A stretch of 64,000 nucleotides of DNA from Anaerolineae bacterium (GTDB lineage Bacteria > Chloroflexota > Anaerolineae > Aggregatilineales > Aggregatilineaceae): positions 496,001 to 560,000 of the forward strand of contig JAOSJP010000034.1 in NCBI GenBank assembly GCA_027494015.1. The letters are read 5' to 3'. Positions 1-16,672 of the stretch are shown here, one piece after another (positions within the stretch are counted from its first letter, which is position 1; each line of letters opens with the position of its first letter). The translations under genes were made by a program, and so were the position numbers. Below the pieces are notes generated by a model, which ran no database searches, had not been told where the DNA came from, and worked only from the letters and a program-made list of their open reading frames with translations.

Positions 1-1184
1 TCGTGGACATCGGCCACGACAGCAGCAACCCGGTCATCAGCACGCGCACCCTGGGCGCGGACGCCGCCCGCGTCAGCCGGCTGGCCGTCGCCCAGGTGCG
101 CGGCTTCCAGTCGGCAGGGGTAGCCGCCTGTGCCAAGCACTTCCCTGGACATGGGAACACACCGACCGACTCACACGTCAGCCTGCCGGTGGTCAGGGGC
201 GCGCTTGATTTTCTGTGGGAACACGATCTGGTCCCCTTCCGGGCGACCGTAGACGCCGGTATTGCCAGCGTCATGATCAGCCACGTCAAGTTCGAGGCGC
301 TCGATCCCGTCTATCCTTCCACCCTGTCACCGGCGATCATCACCGGCCTGCTGCGCCAGGAGATCGGGTTCAAGGGCCTGATCGTCACCGACTGCATGGA
401 GATGCAGGCCATCACTCAGAACTACGGGGCGGGCGAGTCCGCAGTGCTGGCGGCGCTGGCTGGTGTTGACGCGATGTTCTTTTCACACACGCGCCAGAAC
501 CAGGAGGCGGCCTATGACGCCCTGCTACGCGCGGCAGAAAGCGGACGGCTGCCGTTGGCGCAGATTGACGCCGCGAATGCGCGCCTGGACGCCTTCACCC
601 GCCGCTTTCCAGCCAGCGAACCGGGCGACTTGAGCGCCATCCGCCGCGCGGATCATCTGCGCGTTTGCCAGGCGGCAGCCGAGGCCGGCACGGTGCTGCT
701 CACCGCCAACCCGGATGCGTTTCCGCTTCGCCCGCAAAGCCAGCGTATCGCCGTGATCGAGTTCGCGTCGCACCTGGAAACGGGAGCGCTGGATCGGAGC
801 GGCCTGACCGGGCTGGGTGCGTTGCTCCATGCGCAGGTGCCGGGCATCGCGCACATCGCCCTGAACCCGACCGATCCCCGGCCTGACGCGCTTGAAGAAG
901 CCCGCCAGATGGCCCGCGCCGCCGACGTAACGATTGTGGCGACACGCAGCGCGCACTTGCTCCCCCGGCAGCGCGAGATCGCGCAGGAGATGCTGAGCAT
1001 CGCCTCCAAAGGCGTTCTGCTCTGCCTGCGCAACCCCTATGATGTCGAGGTGCTGGACGGCGCGGACGCGATCCTGTGCACCTGTGGCGATGGCACGTCT
1101 TCTCTGCAAGCCGGGGTGGACGCGCTGTTGGGCCGCTTCACACCAGCGGGCCGGCTGCCCGTGCCGATCCGGCGCGCAGTATGA
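1..1184 (+). CDS. nagZ: Beta-N-acetylhexosaminidase, GH3 (NagZ-type), 5' end outside the window
   Basis: The first complete codon is at base 3 and the frame is open to the window edge, so the N-terminal part of the barrel lies upstream. The visible 393 residues contain the family signature KHFPGHGNT at residues 45-53, the Asp-x-His dyad of the general acid/base (D56, H58) and the TDCMEM motif carrying the nucleophile D130. NagZ removes GlcNAc from muropeptides. About 200 residues follow the catalytic domain, as in the two-domain extracellular NagZ of Bacillus rather than the short cytosolic enterobacterial form. Peptide/muropeptide importers and other MurNAc-pathway genes follow on the same strand. 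Confidence 0.88.
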   Translation, partial: VDIGHDSSNPVISTRTLGADAARVSRLAVAQVRGFQSAGVAACAKHFPGHGNTPTDSHVSLPVVRGALDFLWEHDLVPFRATVDAGIASVMISHVKFEALDPVYPSTLSPAIITGLLRQEIGFKGLIVTDCMEMQAITQNYGAGESAVLAALAGVDAMFFSHTRQNQEAAYDALLRAAESGRLPLAQIDAANARLDAFTRRFPASEPGDLSAIRRADHLRVCQAAAEAGTVLLTANPDAFPLRPQSQRIAVIEFASHLETGALDRSGLTGLGALLHAQVPGIAHIALNPTDPRPDALEEARQMARAADVTIVATRSAHLLPRQREIAQEMLSIASKGVLLCLRNPYDVEVLDGADAILCTCGDGTSSLQAGVDALLGRFTPAGRLPVPIRRAV

Positions 1185-1297
1185 CAGGATGGCTGCACCA
1201 GTTGACACGGCGGGCCTAATGAAGCATAGTGTGAAGAGGGCGCAGTGGCACCGCGCCTGAATCTAAAGTTCAGTATATAGCTCAATGGAGGAAGAAA

Positions 1298-3052
1298 ATG
1301 CGACGTGTTACTGTTGTTCTGATCGTGTTGGCGCTGGTGCTCACCGGCGTCGCGCCAGTGCTGGGGCAAGGGGCCCCGGTAGGGACCTTCTATGCCGCCT
1401 GGCCGTATCCGATTCCGCCGGACGGGCACCTCAACAGCTTTGCCGCCGGCGGGCCAGCCGTCGGTGCCGGTCTCGGCCTGTACTACCGCTGGGTCGAGCT
1501 GCCGATGGCCTACTATCTGGCCTCTGAAGCCGACTATGAACCCTGGCTGGCCGAGAGCTGGGAGTTCGAAGGCGACCAGGCGTTCGTGGTGCACCTGCGC
1601 CAGGACGCCCTGTGGAGCAACGGCAGCCCCATCACCGCCGACGATGTGGTGGGCACCTTTGCGATTGGGCGCATCATGAAGTGGACCGACTTCAACTACA
1701 TCGGCGAGGTTGAGAAGGTTGACGACTACACCATCCGCTTCACGCTGTCCAATCCTTCGCTGTATGCCCGGCACCTCATCCTGCGGGATTGCGTCCGCAG
1801 CATGGAGACCTATGGCGATCTCGCTCAGAAGGCCGTGGACCTGTATGAGAGTGGCGAGGCCATAGACAGCGAGGCGTGGAAGGCTCTTCAGACCGAAATC
1901 GGCGAGTTCCGTCCTGAGGAGATCATCGCCAGCGGCCCGTTCATCTATTCTCTGAGCGACGTGGGCGACAGCTTCATGACGCTGCACTGGCAGCCGAACA
2001 GCATCTTCTCGGAGACGGTCAAGTTCGGGGAGGTCAAGATCTGGTACGGCGAGACTGAAGCCGTCACCCCGCTCGTGCTGGACGGCCAGGTGAGCTACGC
2101 GACGCACGGCTTCCCGCCCGCGACTGACCAGGCCATGCAGGACGCCGGGCTGCGCGTCCTGCGCGCGCCCTACCTCTATGGTGCGTCCGTGTATATCAAC
2201 CACACCAAGTATCCCTTCAGCCGGCCAGAGGTGCGCCAGGCGATGGCCATGGTCATTGACCGCGAAGAGAGCGCCTTCCTCACCAAGGGCCTGAGCGCCC
2301 AGCCCGTGCATTACATGGCTGGGATAGCCGATAGCCTGGTTGATCTGTGGCTGTCCGACGAGGACAAGGCCGAGCTTAATACCTATGATCTCAACCGCGA
2401 GGCCGCCGAAGAGCTGCTGCTGAGCATCGGCTTCACGCGCGACAGCAACGGCAAGTGGATTGACGACCAGGGCAACCCGGTGGCCGCTGAGTACATCTTC
2501 CAGGCGGAGTGGGCTGACTATGGCGCTGCCGCGCAGCACGCCGTCGCGCAGTTGAATGACTTTGGCTTCGACATCACGGGCCGCGCAATGCAGTGGCAGC
2601 AGGTTGACCAGGACATCAAGGACGGCAACTTCACCCTGGCGGTTCGTAGTTGGGGCACGTCTTCGCCGTTCCCCAGCGCCCAGTTGTACGGCACCGTGCG
2701 CGACTGGAACTACACCGGACTGCCGGAAGGCCAGACTGGCCTGAACTTCCCGATGGAGTTCGAGTGGAACGGTGAGCAGATTGACTTCACCGCGTTGATC
2801 GCCGAAGCCGGCGCTGGCCTCGATCCGCAAGCGCAGCGGCCTGCCATCGCCAAGGCGGTCAAGATCTGGAATGACCTCCTGCCGGTGATCCCGCTGAGCA
2901 TGGCGCTGACCAACAATCCGCTCAACGAGGGCCTGGTGTCCGGTGCGCCGCCCGACAGCGATCCCATCTGGCTCAACGGCGGTGGCGCGGCTGACAACTA
3001 CATCACGTACCTGGCCATGAAGGGCGTTCTCAGCCCAGGCCCGGAAGCATAA
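1298..3052 (+). CDS. Peptide/muropeptide ABC transporter substrate-binding protein (SBP family 5)
   Basis: A 584-residue extracytoplasmic solute-binding protein of the DppA/OppA class. Residues 1-25 form a signal peptide ending near LGQG with no lipobox cysteine, so it is not an obvious lipoprotein. Typical family features are a substrate-binding entry region (LAESWEFEGDQAFVVHLR) and the later YINHTKYPFSRPEVRQAM block. The start is set by GGAGG nine bases upstream of the ATG. It is first in a run with two permeases and two ATPases and directly follows nagZ. Ligand is inferred from context: dipeptide, oligopeptide or muropeptide. Confidence 0.9.
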   Translation: MRRVTVVLIVLALVLTGVAPVLGQGAPVGTFYAAWPYPIPPDGHLNSFAAGGPAVGAGLGLYYRWVELPMAYYLASEADYEPWLAESWEFEGDQAFVVHLRQDALWSNGSPITADDVVGTFAIGRIMKWTDFNYIGEVEKVDDYTIRFTLSNPSLYARHLILRDCVRSMETYGDLAQKAVDLYESGEAIDSEAWKALQTEIGEFRPEEIIASGPFIYSLSDVGDSFMTLHWQPNSIFSETVKFGEVKIWYGETEAVTPLVLDGQVSYATHGFPPATDQAMQDAGLRVLRAPYLYGASVYINHTKYPFSRPEVRQAMAMVIDREESAFLTKGLSAQPVHYMAGIADSLVDLWLSDEDKAELNTYDLNREAAEELLLSIGFTRDSNGKWIDDQGNPVAAEYIFQAEWADYGAAAQHAVAQLNDFGFDITGRAMQWQQVDQDIKDGNFTLAVRSWGTSSPFPSAQLYGTVRDWNYTGLPEGQTGLNFPMEFEWNGEQIDFTALIAEAGAGLDPQAQRPAIAKAVKIWNDLLPVIPLSMALTNNPLNEGLVSGAPPDSDPIWLNGGGAADNYITYLAMKGVLSPGPEA

Positions 3053-3388: not shown

Positions 3389-4480
3389 ATGGAAGCTACG
3401 ACAGCATCTCCAGTCGCCCAGGCTGCCCCATCACGGCTTGTCGCCTGGCGGCGCGCCGCAGCCCGCCTGCTCACCGGTTATACTGTCCAGACGGTCTTCC
3501 AGGGAATCGTCACCGTCTGGGCAGTGATGACGTTCACCTTCATCCTGATCCGCCAGATGCCCTCCAACCCGGTCGAGATTGAGACGGAGCGGCTCATCCG
3601 TGAGCAGCAATTGTCGTACGACGAGGCGCGCAGCAGGGCCGCGGCGCTGTTCGCGTTTGACCCCGATCAGCCGATCCTCGAGCAGTACGTCGAATACCTC
3701 GGCAAGCTGATCCGGCTGGACCTCGGCACATCCATTACGTCAACGGGCACCCAGGTTCTCGACCAGATTCTGCAATACCTTCCCTGGACGCTCTTCAGCG
3801 TGGGCCTGGGTCTGCTGATCAGCTTCACCATCGGCATCTTTGTGGGCATGGCGATGGCCTACTGGCGCGGCGGCCTGTTCGATAACCTGGTCACTGCGTT
3901 CGCCTCGATTCTGTTTGGCATCCCCAATTACATCATTGCCCTGTTGATCATCCTGATCCTGGGCGTGCAGCTCCACGTGTTCAGCGTCGCCAACGCTCTT
4001 GGCCGGGTTGACCCGACGATCGAGCCTGGTTTCACGATGGAGTACATCGGAAGCGTGCTCAGCCACGCGCTGCTGCCCGTCGTCACCTACGTTTCGGCCA
4101 CGGTGGGCGGCTGGATTCTGACCATGAAGAGCAGCACAATCTCCACGCTGGGCGAGGAGTATGTCACCGTCGCCCATGCGCGCGGCCTGCCTCAGCGGCG
4201 CGTCCTGACGGCCTATGTCGGTCGCAACGCCATGCTGCCGCTGGTGACCCGGCTGGCGATCAGCATCGGCTTTGTCGTCGGCGGCAGCGTGATCATCGAG
4301 GATATCTACCGCTACCGGGGCCTGGGCAAGTTCCTGACTACGGCCATTGTCGCCCGCGATTACACGTCAATGCAGGGTGTTTTTCTGGTAATTGCGATCT
4401 CGGTGGTGGTGGCGAATACGCTGGCCGATGTTCTGTATGGCGTGCTGGATCCGCGCGTGCGCATGGGAAAGGAACGCTGA
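3389..4480 (+). CDS. Peptide ABC transporter permease (DppB/OppB-like)
   Basis: A 363-residue inner-membrane permease. An N-terminal helix (about residues 35-55) is followed by an external segment and five further hydrophobic helices. The EAA-type coupling loop (EEYVTVAHARGLPQRRVL, near residue 255) contacts the ATPase. C-terminal VLDPRVRMGKER is typical of DppB proteins. Two bases separate its stop from the next permease, so the two are co-translated subunits of one importer. Confidence 0.9.
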   Translation: MEATTASPVAQAAPSRLVAWRRAAARLLTGYTVQTVFQGIVTVWAVMTFTFILIRQMPSNPVEIETERLIREQQLSYDEARSRAAALFAFDPDQPILEQYVEYLGKLIRLDLGTSITSTGTQVLDQILQYLPWTLFSVGLGLLISFTIGIFVGMAMAYWRGGLFDNLVTAFASILFGIPNYIIALLIILILGVQLHVFSVANALGRVDPTIEPGFTMEYIGSVLSHALLPVVTYVSATVGGWILTMKSSTISTLGEEYVTVAHARGLPQRRVLTAYVGRNAMLPLVTRLAISIGFVVGGSVIIEDIYRYRGLGKFLTTAIVARDYTSMQGVFLVIAISVVVANTLADVLYGVLDPRVRMGKER

Positions 4481-4482
4481 CG

Positions 4483-5670
4483 TTGGACCTGCAAAGCGTC
4501 GCCAGCCCCACCGGCCTGATCATCGGCGCTCTGTGTGGCCTCGTGCCGCTGGCCGTCGCCATCCGCCAGCGGACGCTGCGGCCCGGCATCCTCGGCTTTG
4601 TGGCGTGTCTGTTCAGCGGGTTTGCGTGTAACGTGCTGGGCGGCCTGCCGATGATCGTCCTGACTGTGGCGGTGGTCGTTTCCTACACCTACACGGACAA
4701 GGACGACCCGTTCCTGTCGCGCGCGCGCCTCGAAGACGTGGACTTTGAAGAGACCTTCGGCGCGATGGTGACGCGCCGCCTGGCCAGCCTGGGGCGCACC
4801 GTCCGAGGAGGGTCTCGTGCGCTGGTCCGCAACAAGGCCGGGTTCCTGGGTTTCCTGGGGCTGGTCTTTTTCTTCGTGCTCACCATTTTCGGCCCCATGC
4901 TGATTCCCTACGACGGCAAGTCACACTACTACGACCGCCGCCGCGAGGGCGCGATAAGCCTGTTTCAGGGACCCTCGGCGGAGTTTCCGCTGGGCCTGGA
5001 CTGGCAAGGGCGCGATATCCTCTCGCACATTGTGCACGGCGGGCGGTCGCTGATCCTCACCGCCGTTCAGGCGGGCGTCCTCACGACAATCATCGCCGTC
5101 ACCCTGGGCGCGCTGTCGGCTCTGTTGGGCGGTTTCCTTGATCGGGCGCTCACCATGATAGCCAATTTCATCCTGACCATTCCACAGTTCCCTCTGCTGG
5201 TGGTGCTGGCCGGGTTGATCAGCTTTCAGGATCGATTCTATCTGGCGCTGTTGCTGGCCGTCCTGGACTGGCCGAGCCTGATGCGAGCGGTGCGCGCTCA
5301 GGTGCTCAGCCTGCGGGAGCGCGATTATGTCGAGGCCGCCGTCGTCCTGGATCTGGGGCTGCCGCACATCATGCTGCGCGAAGTCTTGCCGCAGATGATC
5401 AGCTATGTCTCCATCAACATGATCTTTTCGATCCAGGGGGCGATGTACGCCATCGTTGGCCTGGTCTTCCTCGGCATGGTGCCGTTCACAGAGCCGGACT
5501 GGGGCGTGATGATCTTCATGGGCCGTTCTCAGGGCGCTCTGTTTTCTACGGAGGCAGCCAGTATGTTGCTCTCACCGGTGATCGCGGTGGCGCTGTTCCA
5601 ACTGTCCCTGGTGCTCTTCACGCGCTCGCTGGAAGAAGTCTTCAACCCCCGGCTGCGGGCCGGCCTGTAG
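4483..5670 (+). CDS. Peptide ABC transporter permease (DppC/OppC-like) with N-terminal extension
   Basis: A 395-residue permease partner of the preceding gene. The best start is a TTG two bases after the upstream stop. Residues 1-75 add two or three hydrophobic segments before the usual OppC N-terminal region (NKAGFLGFLGLVFFFVLTIFGP). The EAA loop ERDYVEAAVVLDLGLPHIM is present near residue 285. C-terminal FNPRLRAGL is typical. The longer N-terminus is unusual for DppC, and a later start cannot be excluded. Confidence 0.88.
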   Translation: MDLQSVASPTGLIIGALCGLVPLAVAIRQRTLRPGILGFVACLFSGFACNVLGGLPMIVLTVAVVVSYTYTDKDDPFLSRARLEDVDFEETFGAMVTRRLASLGRTVRGGSRALVRNKAGFLGFLGLVFFFVLTIFGPMLIPYDGKSHYYDRRREGAISLFQGPSAEFPLGLDWQGRDILSHIVHGGRSLILTAVQAGVLTTIIAVTLGALSALLGGFLDRALTMIANFILTIPQFPLLVVLAGLISFQDRFYLALLLAVLDWPSLMRAVRAQVLSLRERDYVEAAVVLDLGLPHIMLREVLPQMISYVSINMIFSIQGAMYAIVGLVFLGMVPFTEPDWGVMIFMGRSQGALFSTEAASMLLSPVIAVALFQLSLVLFTRSLEEVFNPRLRAGL

Positions 5671-5675
5671 GGGAC

Positions 5676-6716
5676 ATGCTGATGTCCGTCCCAGAGCAAC
5701 CTGTCGTTCTCAGCCTACAGGATGTCTCGATCAGCTACCTGGCGCACCGGGGCAGGGTTCAGGCTGTCAGCCAGGTCTCATTTGATCTGCATCGAGGAGA
5801 GTCGCTGGCGCTGATCGGCGAGAGCGGCTGCGGCAAGTCCACGCTCAACCTGGGGATCATCCGTCTGCTGCCCCAAACAGGCCGGGTGGACAGGGGCAAA
5901 ATACTGTACACAACGCGCGAAGGCCAGGTGGTGGATGTCCTGACCCTCGGCGAGCGGGAAATGCGCCAGTTTCGCTGGGCGGAATGCGCCATGATCTTCC
6001 AGGCCGCCCTGAACTCGCTGAATCCCGTCATCCGCGTGCGCGAGATGGTGTACGACACCGCGTCTGCTCATGGCCGCCGTAATCGCGCCGGGATTCGCAG
6101 CCGGATGCTCGATCTGTTCCGCAAAGTACGGCTGGACCCGGAGCGCGTCTTCAATGCCTATCCGCACGAACTGAGCGGCGGGATGCGCCAGCGCGTCCTG
6201 CTGGCGCTGGGCGTTTTGCTGAATCCGCAGGTCGTCATCCTGGACGAGCCGACGACCGCCGTTGATATTCTGACCCAGCGCACGATCCTGGAAGTGCTGA
6301 AAGACCTGCGCGAGGCGATGGGCTTCAGCAGCATCTTTATCAGCCACGATCTCTCGATTGCTGCTGAGATGGCGGACACCGTCGCCACTATGTACGCCGG
6401 CGAGATCGTCGAGATTGGCCCGGTGAACGAACTATTCTATCGCCCTCGCCACGCTTATACGCTCGGTCTGCTGCAGGCCGTTCCAAAGCTGAGCGCGGGC
6501 GCACAGGAGTTGAGCAGTATCCCTGGCAGCCCGCCCGACCTGATCGAGCCGCCGCCCGGCTGCAAATTTCACCCGCGCTGCCCTTTTGCCACAGAGCGAT
6601 GTCGGCGCGAGCCGCCGCCTCTGGTCGAAGAAGTGCCAGGGCATCGCGTGGCCTGTTTCGAGTCTGCACAGGTGCTGGCCCACAGCGGAGAACCCGCTGA
6701 GGAGCCGGGCCTCTAG
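5676..6716 (+). CDS. Peptide ABC transporter ATP-binding protein (DppD/OppD-like)
   Basis: A 346-residue ATPase with Walker A GESGCGKST (residues 48-56), signature LSGGMRQRV, Walker B VVILDEPTTAVD and switch histidine ISHD. The C-terminal oligopeptide-transporter extension carries the Cys-rich motif CKFHPRCPFATERC, typical of OppD/DppD. It lies five bases after the permease stop. It energises the importer encoded just upstream and may also serve the ATPase-less importer at 8743-12177. Confidence 0.92.
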   Translation: MLMSVPEQPVVLSLQDVSISYLAHRGRVQAVSQVSFDLHRGESLALIGESGCGKSTLNLGIIRLLPQTGRVDRGKILYTTREGQVVDVLTLGEREMRQFRWAECAMIFQAALNSLNPVIRVREMVYDTASAHGRRNRAGIRSRMLDLFRKVRLDPERVFNAYPHELSGGMRQRVLLALGVLLNPQVVILDEPTTAVDILTQRTILEVLKDLREAMGFSSIFISHDLSIAAEMADTVATMYAGEIVEIGPVNELFYRPRHAYTLGLLQAVPKLSAGAQELSSIPGSPPDLIEPPPGCKFHPRCPFATERCRREPPPLVEEVPGHRVACFESAQVLAHSGEPAEEPGL

Positions 6717-6750
6717 CTCGCGGGAACTGTGATTGTCAGGACTGAGACTC

Positions 6751-7797
6751 ATGCCAGAAAACCCGTCCGGCCAACCCCTCATCGAGCTGCAGGGGGTGTG
6801 CCGCAGCTTCTACCAGGGGCGAATTCGCATCCCGGTCTTACAGGACATCAATCTGGCCATCGGCGAGAACGAAATCGTCTGTCTGGTGGGCGAGAGCGGC
6901 TGCGGCAAGACGACCACTGGCCGGATCATGGTCAATCTGTTGGAGCCAACCGCCGGCGAAGTGCTCTTCCGGGGCCGCCCGAACGGCGCGCTACGCGGCA
7001 AAGAGCAGGCCGAGCACCGCCGCGCCCTGCAGATCATCCATCAGGACCCTTTTGCCTCGCTCAATCCGGCGCACACCGTCGGCCAGATTCTGTCGTATCC
7101 ACTAAAGCGCCACCGGATGACATCAGGACGTGGCGGCCTGCGGCGACGCATCTGGGAGCTTCTGACGCTGGTGGACCTCACGCCGCCCGGCGATATTGTC
7201 AACAAGTATCCGCACCAACTCAGCGGTGGGCAGCGCCAGCGCGTGAGCATCGCGCGCGCGCTGACGGTCGAGCCAAAGCTGATTGTCGCTGACGAGGCGG
7301 TCAGCATGGTGGATGTCAGCATCCGCGTCAGCCTGCTGAAGATGCTCCACAGCCTGCGCGACCGGTTGGGCGTGGCGATTGTGTTCATCACTCACGACCT
7401 GGCGCTCGCCAAGTACTTCGCCTGGGAAGGGCGCATCGCGGTCATGTACCTGGGGCGGCTTGTCGAGGTTGGCCCCACGCCAGAAGTGATCGCGAACCCG
7501 GCGCATCCCTATACACGCGCGCTGATCTCGGCTATCCCTGAGGCGGACCCGGAGGTGACGCGCAACAAGAAGCGCATGATCCTGCGCAGCGAAGACATCC
7601 CCAGCCTGACTCAGATTCCGCCCGGTTGTGCGTTTCATCCCCGCTGCCCGTTCTTCGTGCCGGGGCTGTGCGATGCCAGAGTCCCGCCGCTGGACCATGC
7701 TGAGGGGTTCGCGCAGGATGTCGCGTGCCTTCCGCTGACGCAAGGGCTGGGCCTGCGCGAGTATGTCGCGGTCGAGGAGCCGGCGCTTGGACCCTGA
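6751..7797 (+). CDS. Peptide ABC transporter ATP-binding protein (DppF/OppF-like)
   Basis: A 348-residue second ATPase of the heterodimer. It has Walker A GESGCGKTT, signature LSGGQRQRVS, Walker B region LIVADEAVSMVD (the usual DEPVSALD is altered) and switch ITHD. The C-terminal CAFHPRCPF motif matches OppF. An upstream in-frame TTG at 6733 is possible, but ATG 6751 with AGGA about ten bases upstream is preferred. Its 3' end overlaps the next small gene by 35 bases. Confidence 0.9.
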   Translation: MPENPSGQPLIELQGVCRSFYQGRIRIPVLQDINLAIGENEIVCLVGESGCGKTTTGRIMVNLLEPTAGEVLFRGRPNGALRGKEQAEHRRALQIIHQDPFASLNPAHTVGQILSYPLKRHRMTSGRGGLRRRIWELLTLVDLTPPGDIVNKYPHQLSGGQRQRVSIARALTVEPKLIVADEAVSMVDVSIRVSLLKMLHSLRDRLGVAIVFITHDLALAKYFAWEGRIAVMYLGRLVEVGPTPEVIANPAHPYTRALISAIPEADPEVTRNKKRMILRSEDIPSLTQIPPGCAFHPRCPFFVPGLCDARVPPLDHAEGFAQDVACLPLTQGLGLREYVAVEEPALGP

Positions 7798-8017: not shown

Positions 8018-8164
8018 TTGGCCGCCGCACCTCGACAGCACGATAGTGGATGCGCTGGATGGCGCGCTGGTACACCAGGCGCGGGAACAACCTACGGACA
8101 CCCGGCCAGTGCGGCCAGCATGAGTCTGAGGCATAAGGCGGCCCCACCAGGAAGTACGACGCAA

Positions 8165-8647
8165 GTGACGAAGCTCACCTTCCGCCCCATGCAACGTTCC
8201 GACATCCTGCCACTGAGTGACTGGCTGGCCGCGCTGCCCCTGTTGCAGCGTTACGAGTTCACCGCCGACAAGGCGCGGGCTGCTCTGGAGGGGGCGCTCC
8301 GGCAGGCGGATATGCTGCTGGTATGCGACGCAGAAGATGCGCCTGACCTGGCCTGTGGATTGGCCTGGGTGATGCCCAGAGGGGGGTTGGGGCGCAGCGC
8401 CTATCTTCGCCTGCTGGCCGTCAACCAGGCGTATGCGGGGCTGGGAATTGGGGCGGGGTTGCTGGCCCAGGCCGAGCAGCTTGCGGCCCGTTCAACCCAG
8501 GATATGCTGTTGCTTGTATCCGACTTCAATGTAGACGCCCAGCAATTCTATCGCCGTCTGGGGTATACTCAGATTGGCGCCATCCCAGACTATGTATTGC
8601 CCGGCGTGACCGAGCTGCTGTTTCGAAAGCGGCTCGCCGGACTGTAA
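8165..8647 (+). CDS. GNAT family N-acetyltransferase
   Basis: A 160-residue acetyltransferase. The acetyl-CoA loop is seen in AYAGLGIGAGLLAQAEQLA, and the C-terminal FNVDAQQFYRRLGYTQIG is the classic GNAT beta5-alpha4 region. Start GTG 8165 follows AGGAAG at good spacing; ATG 8120 is an alternative. It sits between two peptide importers, so an amino acid or peptide amine is a plausible acceptor, but the substrate cannot be read from sequence. Confidence 0.8.
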   Translation: MTKLTFRPMQRSDILPLSDWLAALPLLQRYEFTADKARAALEGALRQADMLLVCDAEDAPDLACGLAWVMPRGGLGRSAYLRLLAVNQAYAGLGIGAGLLAQAEQLAARSTQDMLLLVSDFNVDAQQFYRRLGYTQIGAIPDYVLPGVTELLFRKRLAGL

Positions 8648-8742
8648 CAGAGCGCGGTGCCGAGGAGGTGCACCCCCGATCTGTCAGCTGCCTGAATCAC
8701 CTGATGGTCTTGACTCTGTCGGTTTCGAAAGGTGGAACGCAA

Positions 8743-10269
8743 ATGAACCTACCCCGCATTGCCCGCATTGTGCTCGTCTTAGCCGTTATGGTTATGAGTC
8801 TTGGCGTCGTGGCACCTGGTGCTGCGCAGAGCGACAACACCTTGATCATGGCCCGCGCCGTGGATGCCACCGGTCTGGACCCCCACACGCAAACGGCGTT
8901 CGCGTCGCTGCGCCTGCTCGAGCTTGTTTACGAGCCGCTCATCCAGGCCGACGAGAATCTTAACCTTGTCCCGGCGCTGGCTGAAAGCTGGGCGTTCTCC
9001 GAAGATGGGCTGCAACTCACGCTCAATCTGCGCCAGGGCGTGACCTTCCACGATGGATCAGCCTTCACCGCGCAAGACGTGATCGCCTCTCTTGAGCGCA
9101 TTCTCGATGAGGAGACCGCCTCCGCCACGCGGACCAACCTGCTGTCCATCGAGTCAATGGAAGCGCCGGATGACTATACGGTGGTGCTCAACCTGACGCT
9201 GCCCGATGTGCCGCTGGTGGCCGCGCTGAGCAGTATTAACACGGCGATCCTGTCATCGGAAGTCATCGCCAGCGGCGATCCCACCGCTGATGTAGTCGGC
9301 ACCGGCCCGTTCATGCTCGAAAGCTGGCAGCCCGAAGAGAAGACGGTTCTGAAGGCCAACCCGAACTACTGGGGTGACGGCCCCTTTGTGGACGGCATTG
9401 AAATCCGGATCATTCCCGACGAAGCGACGATCATGGCGGCCTTGCGCGCCGGTGAAGTAGACTTTGTCATGTTCAACGACCCGCTGATCGCCACCCTGCC
9501 GGTCGGCGACGCGACAATCACCATCAACCGCGCGCCGGAGATCTCCTACCACGCGCTGCAACTCCGCGCTTCGGTCGAGCCTTTGGATAAGCTCGAGGTG
9601 CGCCAGGCCATTTCCTGCGCCATTGATCGTCAGGAAGTGGTTGATGTGGCGGCACTGGGCGAGGGTCAGGTCACCGGCCCGCTGACCATGCCGTCCTGGA
9701 CCGTTCCGCTGGACGAGCTGTTCTGCTATGAACAGGATGTTGAACGGGCGCGCGAGCTGATGAAGCAGGCCGGCATGGAAGAGGGCTTCACCCTGCCGGT
9801 GATCGCCTCAGCGTCGGAGCCGCCCACCGCGCTGCCAGAAGCGCAGGTCATCCAGGAACAGCTCAAAGCGATCAACATCACTGTGGAGATCGAATCGCTG
9901 GAGTTTGCCACCTACGTGGATCGCTGGCTGGCCGCGGACTTTGTGGCTGCCATTGCCCTGAACGGCGGGCGGCCCGATCCGTACCCGATGTACTCGCGCT
10001 ACTGGCAATACGATGCGCGCTTCAGCGAAGTGGCGGGCTACGTTGACGACACGCTCGACAGGCTGATGAAGGAAGGACAGGTCGAGACGGATCCGGAAGC
10101 GCGCTACGCGATCTTCGCCGAGTTCCAGAAGCATCTGGCCGAGATGTCGCCCTGGATTTGGCTGTATGCCGGCTACACCTACACCGGACAACAGGCCTAC
10201 GTCACGGACTTCATACCCACCCCTACTGGCTCGCTCTACTACTTGAGCCAGGTTAAGCTCAACCGCTAG
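8743..10269 (+). CDS. Second peptide ABC transporter substrate-binding protein (SBP family 5)
   Basis: A 508-residue DppA-type binding protein. Signal peptide residues 1-28 end near PGAAQ; no lipobox cysteine. Family marks include LAESWAFSEDGLQLTLNLR, VTFHDGSAFTAQDV and ANPNYWGDGP. The start is ATG 8743 with AAAGGTGG upstream. Followed by a perfect stem-loop and two permeases but no ATPase genes. It differs clearly from the first binding protein, so a different ligand is likely. Confidence 0.9.
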   Translation: MNLPRIARIVLVLAVMVMSLGVVAPGAAQSDNTLIMARAVDATGLDPHTQTAFASLRLLELVYEPLIQADENLNLVPALAESWAFSEDGLQLTLNLRQGVTFHDGSAFTAQDVIASLERILDEETASATRTNLLSIESMEAPDDYTVVLNLTLPDVPLVAALSSINTAILSSEVIASGDPTADVVGTGPFMLESWQPEEKTVLKANPNYWGDGPFVDGIEIRIIPDEATIMAALRAGEVDFVMFNDPLIATLPVGDATITINRAPEISYHALQLRASVEPLDKLEVRQAISCAIDRQEVVDVAALGEGQVTGPLTMPSWTVPLDELFCYEQDVERARELMKQAGMEEGFTLPVIASASEPPTALPEAQVIQEQLKAINITVEIESLEFATYVDRWLAADFVAAIALNGGRPDPYPMYSRYWQYDARFSEVAGYVDDTLDRLMKEGQVETDPEARYAIFAEFQKHLAEMSPWIWLYAGYTYTGQQAYVTDFIPTPTGSLYYLSQVKLNR

Positions 10270-10296
10270 GGCCGGATAGATGATCGCCTGATCAGC

Positions 10297-10329: not shown

Positions 10330-10349
10330 CGCACCTATAAGGGGAGAGG

Positions 10350-11315
10350 ATGTCCCGCTATCTGGCGCAGCGTCTTGTCGTGGTGATCCCCACCCTGATA
10401 GGAATCTCACTGCTGGTCTTCATCGCCATCAGGCTTGTGCCCGGCGACGCAATCACGACGATGCTCGGCACCGAAGCCGGGATGCTGACCGCCAAGCAAC
10501 GAGCCTCGCTCGAGGCCTATTTCGGCCTGGACAAGCCCGTTGTCGAGCAGTATTTCTCGTGGATGACCCGCGTGTTGCAGGGCGATCTGGGCTACTCGGT
10601 CCGTCATGGCAAGCCCGTCCTGACACTGATTCTGGAGCGATTTCCTGTCACGCTCGAACTGGCCCTGTTGTCCCTCCTCATCGCCCTGACCATCGGCATC
10701 TCCATTGGGACGCTGTCGGCAGTGCGGCACAACTCGATGATTGACCTGTTCGGGCGGCTGTTCGCGCTGACAGGTCTGGCCGCACCCAACTTTCTGATCG
10801 GCACGCTGCTGATCTATGTGCTCTCTGTATACTTTGGCATCCTGCCCAATTCTGGCAACTACACGGAATTCACCGAAGACCCGCTGAAGAACCTGGGACA
10901 GATTATCTTCCCGGCGCTCACCCTGGGCTTCTCGTTCTCGGCATCGGTCATGCGCACCACGCGCTCGGCCATGCTCGAAGTGTTAGGGCAGGATTACATC
11001 CGCACTGCACGCGGCAAAGGGCTACGTCCGCGCGCGGTCATCTTCGGCCATGCGGTGCGCAATGCGCTGATCCCTATCGTCACGCTGGCCGGTGTGGAGC
11101 TGGGCTATCTGCTGGGCGGCGCAGTGATTGTAGAGAAGGTCTTTGCCCTGCCGGGCATCGGGCGGCTGACGCTCAACGCCATCTCCCAGCGCGATTATGC
11201 GCTCATTCAGGGGGCAACTCTGTTCATCGCCTTCAATTTCGTTGTGATCAACATGCTGGTTGATCTGCTCTATGCCGCCATTGACCCACGGATTTCGTAT
11301 GCCAGCAAGAAGTGA
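10350..11315 (+). CDS. Peptide ABC transporter permease (DppB-like), second importer
   Basis: A 321-residue permease with a start set by GGGGAGAG just upstream. It has an N-terminal helix (MSRYLAQRLVVVIPTLIGISLLVFIAIRL in part), the DppB signature GLDKPVVEQYFSWM and the EAA loop GQDYIRTARGKGLRPRAV near residue 220. C-terminus VDLLYAAIDPRISY is typical. It overlaps the next permease by 17 bases, so translational coupling is likely. Confidence 0.92.
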   Translation: MSRYLAQRLVVVIPTLIGISLLVFIAIRLVPGDAITTMLGTEAGMLTAKQRASLEAYFGLDKPVVEQYFSWMTRVLQGDLGYSVRHGKPVLTLILERFPVTLELALLSLLIALTIGISIGTLSAVRHNSMIDLFGRLFALTGLAAPNFLIGTLLIYVLSVYFGILPNSGNYTEFTEDPLKNLGQIIFPALTLGFSFSASVMRTTRSAMLEVLGQDYIRTARGKGLRPRAVIFGHAVRNALIPIVTLAGVELGYLLGGAVIVEKVFALPGIGRLTLNAISQRDYALIQGATLFIAFNFVVINMLVDLLYAAIDPRISYASKK

Positions 11316-12177
11316 TACGCTGGGCGAGTTCGCCAAAGAGCCATCCGTGCTGCGGCGGCTGCTGCACAGTCGCAGCGGGGCGCTCGGCCTGCTCATTGTC
11401 GTGTTCTACATCATCGTGGCTGTCTTGGGCTTGCTGCAGATCACGCCCTATCCGCCCACCGAACAGCATCGCGTAGATCGGCTGCAAGGCCCCAGCGCGC
11501 AGTACCTCCTGGGAACCGACATGTTCGGGCGCGATTTGCTCAGCCGCGTCATCAAAGGCTCCACCAACTCGCTCTACGTGGCCCTGTTCTCGGTGGCCAT
11601 CTCCGGTACGGTGGGAACCCTGATCGGCACCTCGTCAGCCTACATCGGCGGCATGTTCGATAATGTCATGATGCGCATCATGGATGTGTTCTTCGCCTTC
11701 CCGGCCATCCTGCTGGCGCTGCTGGTCGTGGTCATCCTGGGCCGGGGACTGGATAAGACAATCATCGCCATCGCCGTCGTCTACACGCCCATCTTCGCGC
11801 GCGTGGCGCGCGGCCCGGTGCTATCGGTCAAGGAGATGGAGTACATCACGGCAGCACGCTGCATCGGGATGCACCACAAACGCATCGTGTTCTTTCACGT
11901 GCTGCCCAACACCCTCGCCCCGCTGATCGTTCAGGTCAGCCTGGCCCTGTCGTGGTCGCTGCTGACCGAGGCGGGCCTCAGCTTCCTGGGGCTGGGCATC
12001 CAGCCGCCGGAGCCGTCGTGGGGAGTGATGCTGAGCGAGAGCCAGGGAATCTCCGAGATCGCCCCCTGGCTGATGATCTATCCCGGCCTGGCCATCATGC
12101 TGGGCGTGCTCGGCTTCAATCTGCTGGGCGACGGCCTGCGCGACGTGCTCGATCCGCGCATGAAGCGCCTGCGCTGA
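11299..12177 (+). CDS. Peptide ABC transporter permease (DppC-like), second importer
   Basis: A 292-residue DppC-type permease starting inside the previous gene at ATG 11299. Family marks: LGTDMFGRDLLSRVIKG at residues 70-90, EAA loop EMEYITAARCIGMHHKRI, GLSFLGLGIQPPEPSWG and C-terminal DGLRDVLDPRMKRLR. No ATPase gene follows; the next gene encodes a serine hydrolase. The importer may borrow the ATPases encoded at 5676-7797. Confidence 0.92.
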   Translation: MPARSDTLGEFAKEPSVLRRLLHSRSGALGLLIVVFYIIVAVLGLLQITPYPPTEQHRVDRLQGPSAQYLLGTDMFGRDLLSRVIKGSTNSLYVALFSVAISGTVGTLIGTSSAYIGGMFDNVMMRIMDVFFAFPAILLALLVVVILGRGLDKTIIAIAVVYTPIFARVARGPVLSVKEMEYITAARCIGMHHKRIVFFHVLPNTLAPLIVQVSLALSWSLLTEAGLSFLGLGIQPPEPSWGVMLSESQGISEIAPWLMIYPGLAIMLGVLGFNLLGDGLRDVLDPRMKRLR

Positions 12178-12256
12178 TCGCACTGGATTGTCGCGTGCAG
12201 CAAGGGCGGTGCGAGGAGCCGCCGCCCAATCTCTGACATCATCGAGGAGCAAGCTC

Positions 12257-13510
12257 GTGCCCGCGCTCGACTCTCTGGCACCCGGCCAGACCATCAACAC
12301 TTTTTCTCCCCGCGCCCAAGCCAGCCTGTCACGGATCGTGGAGGCGCACCTGGGAGAAACGTTCCCGGCCATCGCGCTGACGGTCGTCCAGAACGGAACG
12401 GCGCGCTTCAACGGCGCGTGGGGCTGGGTTGATCCGGAAACGGCCTCCTACCCCGCTCAGCCGGACACGTTGTTCGACCTGGCGTCGGTCAGCAAGCTGT
12501 TCACGACGACCGCCTTTCTAGCGCTGGCCAGCGAAGGGCGGGTGCGGCTGGACGATCCGCTGGTGAGCGTGGTCCCTGAATTTGGCGCATCGGGCCAGCG
12601 CCCCCTGGACGGCGGGCAGGACCCGCACAGCAAGGCGATGCTCCCCGTGCCGGAGGAGGCGCGCGACCAGCTCGCTGATCCAGCGCAGGTCACCTTCTTC
12701 CAACTGCTCACCCACACATCGGGGCTGGCCCCCTGGCGCGCTCTGTACGAGGCCGCCGGGCCGCCACCGCCTCCGCCGGACGAACCCGACCCGCTTGGGC
12801 GGAAGGTGCGCTGGGGGCGCGCGCTGCACGCTCTGTGCCGTTCCCCCTTCGTCGGCCAGCCAGGTGACGGCGTCGTGCGCTACAGCGACCTGGGCCTGAT
12901 GCTGCTGGGCGAGGCAACCAGCCGCCTGCACGGAACGCCGAACGCGCTGGACGCAGCGATCGCGGCGCGCGCCCTCGAACCGCTGGCCCTGCGCTCGGTG
13001 ACCTTCAACCCGCTCCAGCACGGGCGCAGCCGGACGACCATTGCGCCCACCGAGGACGATCCCGGCTGGCGCGGGCGGCGCTGCTGGGGCGAAGTTCACG
13101 ACGAGAACGCCTGTGGCGCGGGGGGCGTGGCCGGGCACGCCGGGCTGTTTGGGGCCGCGCGCGATGTCGCGGCGCTGGGGCAGGCGTGGCTGGAGGGCGA
13201 TGTGCGCCTGGGCATCGCGCCCGCGCTGTGGCGCGCTGCCACCAGCGAGCAGGCGCGCACCGGCGAGATACGGCGCGGCCTGGGCTGGCTGCTCAAAGCG
13301 CCCCTGGACTCCTCCGCCGGCGATCTGTTCAGCCCCGATTCCTACGGTCATACGGGGTTCACCGGCACCTCGCTCTGGATCGATCCGGAGCGGGCGCTGG
13401 TCGTCGCCTGCCTGACCAATCGTGTCTATCCGGGGCGCGCCAGGCCGGGCATTGAAGCGTTCCGGCGCGCCGTGCATGATGTCCTAGTGAAGGCGGTGGG
13501 AGACCTATGA
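12257..13510 (+). CDS. Beta-lactamase-fold serine hydrolase (AmlB-like, class C family)
   Basis: A 417-residue member of the AmpC/FmtA-type serine hydrolase family. The nucleophile motif SVSK is at residues 77-80, the second motif reads YSD at 209-211 instead of Y-x-N, and the third is HTGFTG near residue 345. No signal peptide is evident. Start GTG 12257 follows AGGAG at proper spacing. Its stop overlaps the anmK start (ATGA). A similar protein (YbbE/AmlB) sits in the Bacillus murQ-nagZ operon, supporting a cell-wall role; the reaction is unknown. Confidence 0.82.
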   Translation: MPALDSLAPGQTINTFSPRAQASLSRIVEAHLGETFPAIALTVVQNGTARFNGAWGWVDPETASYPAQPDTLFDLASVSKLFTTTAFLALASEGRVRLDDPLVSVVPEFGASGQRPLDGGQDPHSKAMLPVPEEARDQLADPAQVTFFQLLTHTSGLAPWRALYEAAGPPPPPPDEPDPLGRKVRWGRALHALCRSPFVGQPGDGVVRYSDLGLMLLGEATSRLHGTPNALDAAIAARALEPLALRSVTFNPLQHGRSRTTIAPTEDDPGWRGRRCWGEVHDENACGAGGVAGHAGLFGAARDVAALGQAWLEGDVRLGIAPALWRAATSEQARTGEIRRGLGWLLKAPLDSSAGDLFSPDSYGHTGFTGTSLWIDPERALVVACLTNRVYPGRARPGIEAFRRAVHDVLVKAVGDL

Positions 13511-14691
13511 TCATCGTTGGCCTGATGTCTGGCACCTCGGCGGACGGCATTGACGCGGCATTGTGCGAGATTGCGGGCGCGCCGCCCCACATCCAGGCGC
13601 GCATCCGCCACGCGATCACCTACCCGTACCCGCAGGGCTTCCAGGAGCGCATTCTGAGCGCCTGCCTGCCGGAGCACAGCGCTGTGGATGTGCTGTGCCA
13701 GCTCAATTTCGACCTGGGGGAGCTGTTCGCCCGCGCCGCGCAGCGCGTCATCGAAGAGGCGGGCCTGGCCAGCAGCGAGGTTGACCTGATCGCCTCGCAC
13801 GGCCAGAACGTCTGGCATATGGTTCAGCCAGACGGACAGGTGAGCGCCACCCTGCAAATCACCGAGGCGACCGTGATCGCCGAGCGCACCGGCATCACCA
13901 CCGTGAGCAACTTCCGCACGCGCGATGTCGCCGCGGGGGGACAGGGCGCGCCGCTGGCCAGCTACTTCGACTGGCTGCTGCTGCGTCACCCGGCTCACTG
14001 GCGTGCCGCGCAGAATCTCGGCGGGATCGGCAACGTGACTTTTCTGCCCCCGCTCTCCGATTCTGACTCTGCGCCGCTGGCCTTCGACACCGGCCCCAGC
14101 AACGCCCTGATTGACGTGGCCGTGACGCTGCTCAGCGGCGGGGCGCAGCTTTACGACCGGGATGGGGCGTTGGCCGCGCGCGGCCAGGTGGATGACGAAT
14201 GGCTGACCGCGCTGCTGGCCCACCCCTATTTCGAGCGGCGACCGCCCAAGACCACAGGGCGCGAGGTCTTCGGCGCGGTCATGGGCGAGGAACTGGTGCG
14301 CGAAGGGCGTGCGCGCGGCCTGGACGACGCATCTATCGTGGCGACGCTCACCGCCCTGACCGCCGCCAGCGTCGCCGCTGCCTATCGCCGCTTCGCCCCC
14401 GCGCCGATTGGTGAAGCGATCCTGGCGGGAGGCGGCGCGCGCAATCCCACGCTGGTGCGGATGCTGCACGAGCGCCTGCACCCGACCCCGGTCTTGCTCA
14501 GCGAAGACATCGGCCTGGACAGCGACAACAAAGAGGCGCTTCTCTTCGCGCTGCTGGCCCACGAGACCTGGCACGCCCGTCCGGGCACCCATCCGGCGCT
14601 GACTGGCGCGCGGCACGGCTCGGTTCTGGGGCAAATCACGCCGGGGCGCAATTACGCCGATCTCATCCGCCGCACGTGGTGCCCGGACTAG
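13507..14691 (+). CDS. anmK: Anhydro-N-acetylmuramic acid kinase
   Basis: AnmK opens the 1,6-anhydro ring of anhydroMurNAc and phosphorylates it to MurNAc-6-phosphate. The 394 residues show the N-terminal ATP motif GLMSGTSADGIDAALC, ASHGQNVWH, GGQGAPLASYFD, NLGGIGNVTF, FDTGPSNALID and the late GGGARNP adenosine motif. It overlaps the preceding hydrolase by four bases and is followed 34 bases later by murQ, the enzyme that uses its product. Confidence 0.95.
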   Translation: MIIVGLMSGTSADGIDAALCEIAGAPPHIQARIRHAITYPYPQGFQERILSACLPEHSAVDVLCQLNFDLGELFARAAQRVIEEAGLASSEVDLIASHGQNVWHMVQPDGQVSATLQITEATVIAERTGITTVSNFRTRDVAAGGQGAPLASYFDWLLLRHPAHWRAAQNLGGIGNVTFLPPLSDSDSAPLAFDTGPSNALIDVAVTLLSGGAQLYDRDGALAARGQVDDEWLTALLAHPYFERRPPKTTGREVFGAVMGEELVREGRARGLDDASIVATLTALTAASVAAAYRRFAPAPIGEAILAGGGARNPTLVRMLHERLHPTPVLLSEDIGLDSDNKEALLFALLAHETWHARPGTHPALTGARHGSVLGQITPGRNYADLIRRTWCPD

Positions 14692-14725
14692 CTCAGGGAA
14701 TGTCACCTGGAATGGAGCACGCCGT

Positions 14726-15622
14726 ATGCTGACCGAAGAGCGCAGCCCGCGAACGGCCACTATTGACCGCCTGAGCACGCTGGCCCTGCTGGAGGTGATG
14801 AACGACGAGGATGCGTCCGTCCCTGGCGCGGTGCGGCGCGCCCTGCCGGCCATTGCCCAGGCAGTAGACGCCATCGTGGAGCATCTGCGGCAGGGCGGAC
14901 GCCTGCTCTATGTTGGGGCGGGCACCAGCGGGCGACTGGGCGTGCTTGACGCCGTCGAATGCGTGCCCACTTTCAACACCGATCCCGAGACGGTGCAGGG
15001 CATCATCGCAGGCGGCCCGCTTGCACTGACCCACGCCGCCGAGGGTGCTGAGGATGATCGCGCAGCGGGGTACGCGGAAATGGTGGCCCGCAACGTGAGC
15101 GGGCGAGATGTGGTGGTCGGCATCGCCGCCAGCGGACGAACCCCCTACGTCATCGGCGCGCTGGAGGCCGCCAACGCTGCCGGAGCCGCGACGGTGGCGA
15201 TCTCCTGCAACGAGCCAGCGCCCATGCTGGACATGGCTGGCATCCCCATCGCTGTCCTGGTCGGCCCGGAGATCCTCAGCGGCTCCACCCGCCTCAAAGC
15301 GGGCACGGCGCAGAAGCTCATTCTGAACATGCTCAGCACCGCCACCATGATCCGGCTGGGCAAGGTTTACCAGAACCTGATGGTTGACATGCGCGCCACT
15401 AACCAGAAGCTGATGCAGCGCGCCCGGCGCATTGTGGCCGAGATCGCCGGGGTGAGCGGCGAGGAAGCCGGCGAACTATTGACCCACGCGGGGGGCGAGA
15501 TCAAGACGGCCATTGTCATGGCGCTGCTCGGCGTCAGCCCGGACGACGCCCGCGCGCAGATTGACGCGGCGGGTGGTGTGCTGCGCACTGTCATCGGAGA
15601 TCGCGACCCGCCGCGCGGCTGA
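14726..15622 (+). CDS. murQ: N-acetylmuramic acid 6-phosphate etherase
   Basis: MurQ cleaves the lactyl ether of MurNAc-6-phosphate to GlcNAc-6-phosphate and D-lactate. The 298-residue length is normal. The SIS-domain sugar-phosphate site GAGTSGRLGVLDAVEC is near residues 64-79, with the catalytic Glu in DAVEC and the AEGAEDD motif after it; QKLILNMLSTATMIRLGKVYQNLMVDM and the C-terminal helical domain follow. It ends 12 bases from the convergent epimerase gene. Confidence 0.96.
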   Translation: MLTEERSPRTATIDRLSTLALLEVMNDEDASVPGAVRRALPAIAQAVDAIVEHLRQGGRLLYVGAGTSGRLGVLDAVECVPTFNTDPETVQGIIAGGPLALTHAAEGAEDDRAAGYAEMVARNVSGRDVVVGIAASGRTPYVIGALEAANAAGAATVAISCNEPAPMLDMAGIPIAVLVGPEILSGSTRLKAGTAQKLILNMLSTATMIRLGKVYQNLMVDMRATNQKLMQRARRIVAEIAGVSGEEAGELLTHAGGEIKTAIVMALLGVSPDDARAQIDAAGGVLRTVIGDRDPPRG

Positions 15623-15623
15623 C

Positions 15624-15645
15624 CGCCCGCCCGCTCACGCGGGCG
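15624..15645. terminator. Possible bidirectional hairpin between murQ and the epimerase gene
   Basis: CGCCCGC at 15624-15630 pairs with GCGGGCG at 15639-15645 around an eight-base loop, spanning the 12-base gap between two convergent genes and entering the 3' end of the epimerase gene. No T-run is present, so termination is only suggested by position. Confidence 0.35.
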
Positions 15646-16672
15646 CAGGCGCGATCCCCAGCCCTGGGCGCTCGGTCAGGATGATCTGTCCCTGGCGCAT
15701 CTCAAGACCGCAATAGGGATCGTTGGTCACCAGCAGGTTGCCGTCCAGGTCGGCGTAGTCGGCCAGCGGGGCCAGGTGGGCCGCCGCCGCGACAGCTACC
15801 GTGCTCTCGATCATGCACCCGATCAGCACCTTTATGCCGCAGGCCCGCGCCAGGTGAATCATCTGCATCGCCGGGCGCAGACCGCCACACTTGGCCAGCT
15901 TGACATTGATGCCGTCCACCAGGCCAGCCAGCGGCAGAACGCTCTCTGCCCCCTGAACAGACTCATCGGCGATCAGCGGTGGACGAACGGCGGGCAGAGA
16001 GTCGTGCAAGGTGCGCCATCCGTCCAGGTCATCGCGCGCCACAGGCTGCTCGATGAAGACAATCTCGTGCTCGATCAGGGCGGGAATGATGGCCGCAGCC
16101 TCGTCCGCAGACCAGCCCCCATTGGCGTCCACGCACAATCGCGCGCTGGTTTCCTGGCGGGCCATCTGCACATAGCGCAGGTCGGCCCGCCAGTCGCCGC
16201 TGCCCAGCTTGAGCTTGATCAGGCCGTACTCGCGCGCCTCGCGCACCCGCTGGCGGTATTCGTCCTCATCGTCGGCCATAGCCACGGTGAACGAGCTGAC
16301 CGGTATGCGCGCCGGGTTGAGGCCCCACAGGCGGTACAGCGGGTGGCCCAGATGCTTGCCCCACAGATCGTGCAGCGCAATATCCACCGCCGCTCGTGCT
16401 GCCGGAGGCATGTCGGCTGGCAGACGGTCGAGAGCATCGCTCAGCAGCAGAGGATCGCCGCCCAGAGCATCTCGCAGCGCCGGAGCGCGGAGGTATTGCA
16501 GGACCCGCTCCGCAGTCTCTCCGTAGTAAGGGACTACCGCCGCTTCGCCTACGCCGCTGGTGAGGCCATCGCTCACCTGGAGCAGGACATTCTCGCGCAC
16601 TGTGGTCGCGCCATAGGAGAGCTTGAAAGGGCTGCGAAGTTGCAGAGCCAATCGGTGCGTTTGTATGTGCAT
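15635..16672 (-). CDS. L-Ala-D/L-Glu (dipeptide) epimerase, enolase superfamily
   Basis: A 345-residue muconate-lactonizing-subgroup enzyme. Visible catalytic and metal residues: the K-x-K pair in LIKLKLGSG, VDANGGWS (Asp), FIEQPV (Glu), IADESVQ (Asp/Glu), the second lysine in INVKLAKCGG, plus CMIES and DLDG, which in Ala-Glu epimerases bind the dipeptide. This enzyme converts L-Ala-D-Glu from murein peptides to L-Ala-L-Glu for breakdown. Convergent with murQ and equivalent to YkfB/YcjG. It has its own TATAAT promoter element. Confidence 0.88.
   Translation of the reverse strand: MHIQTHRLALQLRSPFKLSYGATTVRENVLLQVSDGLTSGVGEAAVVPYYGETAERVLQYLRAPALRDALGGDPLLLSDALDRLPADMPPAARAAVDIALHDLWGKHLGHPLYRLWGLNPARIPVSSFTVAMADDEDEYRQRVREAREYGLIKLKLGSGDWRADLRYVQMARQETSARLCVDANGGWSADEAAAIIPALIEHEIVFIEQPVARDDLDGWRTLHDSLPAVRPPLIADESVQGAESVLPLAGLVDGINVKLAKCGGLRPAMQMIHLARACGIKVLIGCMIESTVAVAAAAHLAPLADYADLDGNLLVTNDPYCGLEMRQGQIILTERPGLGIAPAPA

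Follow-up and report, generated by a model that had tools for sequence, protein, structure and literature searches.

In Agrobacterium tumefaciens, an ATP-binding cassette (ABC) importer with a periplasmic solute-binding protein (SBP), YejBEF-YepA, takes the place of AmpG in the uptake of anhydromuropeptides (PMC9790009, in the part of that paper available to us), and in Bacillus subtilis NagZ and AmiE work outside the cell and N-acetylmuramic acid (MurNAc) enters via the phosphotransferase system (PTS) permease MurP (PMC5061867, again in the part available). Here we examine positions 1–16,672 of a 64,000-nucleotide stretch of DNA from an Anaerolineae bacterium (contig JAOSJP010000034.1, positions 496,001–560,000; hereafter the window), which probably hold a cell-wall recycling locus of the Anaerolineae in which two ABC importers of SBP family 5 serve fragment uptake. 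The genes for nagZ, importer 1 (five genes), a GNAT acetyltransferase, importer 2, a PF00144 hydrolase, anmK and murQ all lie on the plus strand, and an epimerase gene converges on them from the minus strand, as follows.

3..1184, + strand: nagZ, GH3 beta-N-acetylglucosaminidase (PF00933 173 bits, PF01915); its N-terminus lies beyond the window start
1298..3052, + strand: SBP1, family-5 solute-binding protein of importer 1 (PF00496; Sec-like hydrophobic N-terminus, no lipobox)
3389..4480, + strand: permease B of importer 1, permB1 (PF00528)
4483..5670, + strand: permease C of importer 1, permC1 (PF00528, OppC_N)
5676..6716, + strand: ATPase D of importer 1 (ABC_tran, oligo_HPY)
6733..7797, + strand: ATPase F of importer 1 (ABC_tran, oligo_HPY)
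8165..8647, + strand: GNAT acetyltransferase (PF13508/PF00583; start estimated from homologues, open reading frame (ORF) opens at 8018)
8743..10269, + strand: SBP2, family-5 solute-binding protein of importer 2 (PF00496 298 bits; start estimated from homologues, ORF opens at 8668)
10350..11315, + strand: permease B of importer 2, permB2 (PF00528, PF19300)
11260..12177, + strand: permease C of importer 2, permC2 (PF00528, OppC_N)
12257..13510, + strand: AmiE/AmlB-like serine hydrolase (PF00144 172 bits; start estimated from loci L001 and L010, ORF opens at 12188)
13507..14691, + strand: anmK, 1,6-anhydro-MurNAc kinase (NCBIfam equivalog, 454 bits)
14726..15622, + strand: murQ, MurNAc-6-phosphate etherase (TIGR00274, 384 bits)
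15635..16672, − strand: enolase-superfamily enzyme resembling dipeptide epimerases or N-acyl-Glu racemases (PDB 3iji, E = 1e-67), convergent

The permB2 and permC2 genes overlap, as do those of the hydrolase and AnmK, and a gap of 34 bases separates anmK from murQ. The original prediction had named this recycling set, nagZ to murQ on one strand with a convergent epimerase, and all of its genes are present where it placed them, although it had passed over the GNAT gene at about 8165–8647. Its "second importer" does comprise SBP2 and two permeases but has no ATPases of its own.

The gene neighbourhood is more than chance, because across the class these genes are repeatedly found together. We surveyed 249 genomes, largely draft assemblies, from the class of the genome that carries L010, one of the two nearest relatives of the locus (taken as Anaerolineae), and found AnmK in 79, MurQ in 87 and both in 67; in 45, anmK and murQ are no more than 15 kb apart. 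Orthologues of SBP2 (E ≤ 1e-90) occur in 20 of these genomes, 19 of which encode AnmK (Fisher p = 1e-9), and orthologues of the importer 1 permease C (E ≤ 1e-60) in 54, of which 50 are AnmK-positive (Fisher p = 5e-27); the orthologue sets are defined by E-value thresholds and the Fisher tests take genomes as independent. The single control gene, a citrate transporter (window positions 55898–57769), is found in 134 genomes, 43 of them AnmK-positive, which is the background rate (p = 0.50), and 4 of its 19 closest genomes encode AnmK. Physical linkage follows the same genes: no more than 15 kb separate SBP2 from anmK or murQ in 11 of its 20 genomes, and the same holds for permease C of importer 1 in 14 of its 54. 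The view that importer 1 is unrelated to recycling, which had been suggested by its absence beside anmK in the first 11 loci, was rejected on the basis of this class survey.

Around anmK itself we compared 80 stretches together with L010 (genome G001) and L158, which cover 78 of the 79 AnmK-positive genomes; G120, a contig-end fragment, was left out. At least one further recycling gene lies within 10 kb of anmK in 62 of the 78 genomes, and an importer does so in 29 (importer 2 in 10, importer 1 in 8 and a CUT1-type sugar importer in 13). These are lower bounds, because many contigs stop near anmK. GntR/UTRA regulators and NamZ each occur near anmK in 24 loci. The neighbourhood comparison that the original prediction had called for thus comes out in its favour, in that importers do recur with anmK and murQ across the class. 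The CUT1-type importer, made up of an SBP_bac_1/8 protein and two permeases, is a third type of importer near anmK and usually comes with GntR and NamZ (L053, L054, L057, L058, L061, L065–L067, L072, L085, L087, L089 and L090). Separately, we observed apparent AnmK–MurQ fusions, single frames above a 640-aa threshold, 681–786 aa long and spanning anmK and murQ, in 15 loci of 14 genomes (L051–L054, L056, L059–L062, L064, L072, L109, L114, L117 and L119).

The nearest loci lie on contigs L010 and L001 of Anaerolineae metagenome-assembled genomes (AnmK 94% and 93%). Both keep the order GNAT, SBP2, permB2, permC2, AmiE-like hydrolase, anmK and murQ with the convergent epimerase at 83–96% protein identity, apart from one piece of the L010 GNAT at 57%. 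The L001 contig starts within the GNAT gene, and L010 extends about 4.5 kb further upstream, where neither importer 1 nor nagZ is found. Both importers stand together in the more distant L144 (AnmK 53%), where at most 19 kb hold an anmK-murQ fusion, SBP2, permB2, permC2, GNAT, permB1, permC1 and both ATPases, as well as SBP1 (31%), nagZ (31%), a two-domain GlmA-like GNAT, an AmiE-like hydrolase and a BadF-type kinase. This is the window set minus the epimerase, in a different order and with a few other genes interspersed, and L145 (which extends L064) and L150 (which extends L072) likewise hold both importers. On one strand of L161 we found NagA, murQ, a kinase, an AmiE-like gene, NamZ, nagZ and importer 1, and L160 carries nagZ, SBP1, permB1 and permC1 in window order at 78–87% identity up to its contig end. 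We inspected 20 of the 54 importer-1 loci, three of them picked for a known nearby murQ and four for the absence of AnmK and MurQ from their genomes, and found nagZ, NamZ, murQ or an AmiE-like gene in 10 of the 20 (7 of 17 without the three murQ-picked loci). In AnmK-negative genomes, NamZ adjoins importer 1 in L176 and L178, and no nagZ, NamZ, murQ or AmiE-like gene is present at importer 1 in the stretches inspected of L177 and L179. One further locus, L003, is labelled Bacteroidetes, yet its anmK (70%) and SBP2 block (62–68%) look Anaerolineae, and its bin may be mislabelled or mixed.

The other known uptake routes, and the site of enzyme action, were judged from relatives of the window organism. 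No AmpG exceeds the TIGR00901 cut-off in any of the 79 AnmK-positive genomes (weak matches in 14; the E. coli control was detected), and PTS_EIIC exceeds its cut-off in 3 of the 79, a count made at domain level and not specific to MurP, which agrees with the earlier proposal that the locus does without AmpG or PTS uptake. SLT-type lytic transglycosylases are present in 76 and MltG in 77 of the same genomes, which should therefore be able to make anhydro ends. The nearest full-length relatives of NagZ are about 517 aa long with no signal-like N-terminus, and a hydrophobic N-terminus is absent from all 115 full-length NagZ proteins among the best 120 of 4044 relatives. AmiE-like and NamZ proteins with a clear start also lack a signal peptide (signal peptides were called by a hydrophobicity rule for NagZ, SBP1 and SBP2 and by eye for the others). 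Because NagZ and the AmiE-like protein carry no signal in this lineage, fragments should enter with N-acetylglucosamine (GlcNAc) and peptide still attached. In the distant L144, L145 and L159 the NagZ start is lipoprotein-like, so that GlcNAc would be removed outside the cell there; no signal is seen in the AmiE-like proteins of L144 and L159.

The two importers differ in their binding proteins. The best-ranked structure and profile matches of SBP1 are binders of manno-, cello- and chitooligosaccharides, which places it by best ranking in the chito-/mannooligosaccharide branch of SBP family 5, a preference that rests on rank order only; identity to the Vibrio chitooligosaccharide-binding protein and Thermotoga TM1223 is just 16–21%. 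MppA and DppE also match SBP1 structurally, at lower Z (25.7 and 24.9), so that the fold alone leaves the ligand unfixed, and YejA appears among weak profile matches only (about 40 bits). Among the matches listed for SBP2 YejA does not appear, an absence that carries no weight. As SBP1 ranks closest to oligosaccharide binders, importer 1 may be a glycan importer. What had been called a "five-gene peptide importer" therefore does have five genes and a family-5 SBP, but SBP1 is nearest to manno-, cello- and chitooligosaccharide binders, and a plain peptide importer is less likely by the ranking of its matches. The best-ranked structures for SBP2 are binders of an opine, dipeptides, glutathione and a signalling molecule. 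In DppA, R383 binds the dipeptide carboxyl and D436 the dipeptide amine (PMC12136057, in the part available to us); we took the corresponding positions from the alignment with Y. pestis DppA. All 49 aligned SBP2 sequences have Gly at the D436 position, and the R383 position is variable, with Ala in the window, so that both charges are missing and we rejected SBP2 as a DppA-like dipeptide binder. Against the Opp2B model permB2 scores 333 bits (cut-off 350).

SBP1 (1298–3052) and SBP2 (8743–10269) both have hydrophobic N-termini without a lipobox cysteine, which a simple pattern also found in none of 118 and none of 119 full-length relatives, respectively; the cysteine is present in distant SBP orthologues (e.g. 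L044 and L119). SBPs without it are surprising in cells regarded as having no outer membrane, and the Chloroflexota are generally described as lacking one.

Among the enzymes, AnmK and MurQ exceed their equivalog cut-offs (454 vs 387 bits for AnmK; 384 vs 302 bits for MurQ by TIGR00274), and NagZ, the N-terminal part of which lies outside the window, scores 119 bits against NF003740 (cut-off 207) and 173 bits for the GH3 N domain. The PF00144 hydrolase bears the SxxK, Tyr and HTG motifs of AmiE/AmlB-type enzymes (FDLASVSK, YSD and HTGFTG) and is predicted to be an amidase cutting the MurNAc–L-Ala bond. By NF002968 it is not PBP4B (yfeW; 119 bits vs a cut-off of 385), and PBP4B is still its best NCBIfam relative. 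The epimerase is the least conserved part of the locus, adjoining anmK only in L001, L002, L010 and the window, and falls under every NCBIfam equivalog cut-off (L-Ala-D/L-Glu epimerase NF011708, 121 vs 343 bits; DgcA, 206 vs 400 bits). Its best PDB relative is 3iji (E = 1e-67), which we take to be a dipeptide epimerase. The claim of an Ala-Glu epimerase was thus right as to resemblance and convergent orientation but not borne out by any equivalog model, and such a gene lies beside anmK in 1 of 78 class genomes.

The single-domain GNAT, which may have a role in recycling, forms a set of 17 loci in ORF clustering, the window counted in. By eye, it (8165–8647 in the window) accompanies importer 2 in 18 of 23 importer-2 loci, and 3 of the 5 exceptions end at a contig edge. 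We rejected its identification as GlmA, as its PDB matches are generic. A different, two-domain GNAT near anmK (L110:8248–9252 and 11 other loci) has PDB matches to 5kf1 and to the C-terminal portion of the N-acetylglucosaminidase 4zm6; both structures are presumably GlmA-type, and the two-domain protein is probably a GlmA-like glucosamine acetyltransferase.

Reading the locus as a recycling pathway, we propose that lytic transglycosylases outside the membrane would free GlcNAc-anhydroMurNAc fragments with or without peptide. Importer 1, consisting of SBP1, two permeases and ATPases D and F, would most likely carry the glycan part, a disaccharide or short muro-oligosaccharide, and importer 2, consisting of SBP2 and two permeases and perhaps borrowing ATPases D and F, would most likely carry muramyl-peptides or modified murein peptides; all substrates, and the sharing of ATPases, are predictions from gene content and homology. 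In the cytoplasm, NagZ would strip GlcNAc and the AmiE-like hydrolase would strip the peptide, AnmK would open and phosphorylate anhydroMurNAc to MurNAc-6-phosphate, and MurQ would convert this to GlcNAc-6-phosphate and D-lactate. In close relatives the epimerase would handle the L-Ala-D-Glu part. A narrower version, that of a dedicated two-importer murein system, is one we advance tentatively and with some doubt: importer 1, of the chitooligosaccharide branch, would import intact GlcNAc-(anhydro)MurNAc oligosaccharides or disaccharide-peptides for cytoplasmic NagZ and NamZ, and importer 2 would use the same ATPase pair for muramyl-peptides. If true, this would constitute a glycan-type ABC muropeptide importer in Chloroflexota.

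The same genes could instead serve to feed on the peptidoglycan of other, lysed bacteria, with self-recycling secondary, a possibility that we take seriously and place only somewhat below an even balance. Uptake of N-acetylglucosamine originating from lysed cells and debris has been reported for the Chloroflexi of sludge and anammox reactors (PMC9942424, in the part of the paper available to us), and the GntR/UTRA regulators and NamZ near anmK (24 loci each) fit an inducible catabolic cluster. The SLT and MltG enzymes of AnmK-positive genomes (76 and 77 of 79) speak for self-made anhydro ends, although scavenging is still compatible with them. In our judgement it is unlikely that wall fragments are carried by just one of the importers or by neither of them, importer 2 being a general opine or peptide importer and importer 1 a general beta-oligosaccharide importer for chitin or plant material, both near anmK through shared amino-sugar regulation. 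Several observations weigh on this side and against fragment uptake: the structures ranked best for SBP1 are binders of chitin, mannan or cellulose oligomers and those for SBP2 binders of an opine, dipeptides, glutathione and a signalling molecule, and the fetched stretches show no recycling genes with importer 2 in L146, L147 and L148 or with importer 1 in L162, L163, L168, L169, L171, L172, L174, L175, L177 and L179. Against this reading stand the strong co-occurrence with AnmK, which the control transporter does not show, and the repeated linkage to nagZ, NamZ, an AmiE-like gene and murQ, with NamZ beside importer 1 even in the AnmK-negative L176 and L178.

A further alternative concerns only the epimerase and GNAT, which might form a D-glutamate route in which GNAT acetylates D-Glu and the enolase-superfamily enzyme racemises N-acetyl-D-Glu. 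The top NCBIfam model for the latter is indeed DgcA, an N-acetyl-D-Glu racemase (206 bits), ranking above the L-Ala-D/L-Glu epimerase (121 bits), but both models stay under their cut-offs (400 and 343), the best PDB relative is 3iji (E = 1e-67) and many GNAT loci have no epimerase, so that we regard this route as improbable.

The proposed recycling locus names definite candidate genes for the missing step of muropeptide uptake in a large phylum, most of it uncultured, in which AnmK and MurQ occur with no AmpG found and almost no PTS_EIIC, and would extend ABC-driven wall recycling past the Alphaproteobacteria. Some importers that are called "oligopeptide" importers on the basis of their family may carry muro-glycans, and the locus bears on the use of bacterial necromass by Chloroflexota in sludge and sediments. 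Elsewhere, the window encodes a bacterial alpha-2-macroglobulin of 1974 aa with four Big_5 stretches (33292–39216) and a protein of 600 aa that weakly matches multihaem cytochromes c (59466–61268).

Several described systems share parts of this arrangement. Like SBP1 and SBP2, MppA/Opp of E. coli and DppE of B. subtilis involve family-5 SBPs, which bind murein tripeptide or wall-derived peptides, but SBP1 and SBP2 are not close to them (17–20% over fold alignments) and SBP2 lacks the DppA-type charge pair. The Vibrio chitooligosaccharide-binding protein and TM1223, family-5 SBPs that bind sugar, provide the top folds and profiles for SBP1, from which they differ in their low identity and in the window's gene context of murein recycling. 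As far as the available part of PMC5061867 describes them, the E. coli murQ-murP-yfeW operon with AnmK and AmpG shares the AnmK and MurQ steps and, in PBP4B, a PF00144 protein encoded by the murQ operon, with uptake by AmpG and MurP, of which the window's relatives show no AmpG (0/79) and rarely PTS_EIIC (3/79); and the B. subtilis cluster murQ-murR-murP-amiE-nagZ-ybbC shares murQ, an AmiE-like hydrolase and nagZ, with NamZ/YbbC found in the window's relatives. Here, in contrast to B. subtilis, the NagZ relatives and the AmiE-like hydrolase lack a signal peptide, anmK is present and ABC importers stand in place of a PTS.

We found no literature description of a Chloroflexota wall-recycling importer or of a comparable cluster of ABC importers linked to anmK, in a search outside which most subscription journals lay, and the nearest system is YejBEF-YepA. 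The "undescribed muropeptide uptake system" of the original prediction may accordingly stand as regards the anmK-linked cluster but does not stand as regards ABC muropeptide uptake as such, which YejBEF-YepA already exemplifies (PMC9790009). As far as the available part of that paper describes it, YejBEF-YepA resembles the window system in SBP-dependent ABC import instead of AmpG and in that YepA is encoded apart from a core shared with another SBP; it differs in belonging to an alphaproteobacterium, in an importer that by locus tags is not beside anmK and in a MurNAc route through AnmK-MupP-AmgK-MurU rather than MurQ. The window, for its part, has two importers with SBPs of different branches and separate D and F ATPases. 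The single ATPase YejF is absent, as importer 1 has two ATPase genes and importer 2 none (200 and 172 bits against the YejF model, cut-off 834), and permB2, the one permease of four scanned against NCBIfam, is not YejB (136 bits vs a cut-off of 445). Because its ATPases are arranged differently and the one permease tested is unlike YejB, the window system is not a member of the YejBEF-YepA system; by analogy with it, we nevertheless predict that it works in a like manner and imports muropeptides.

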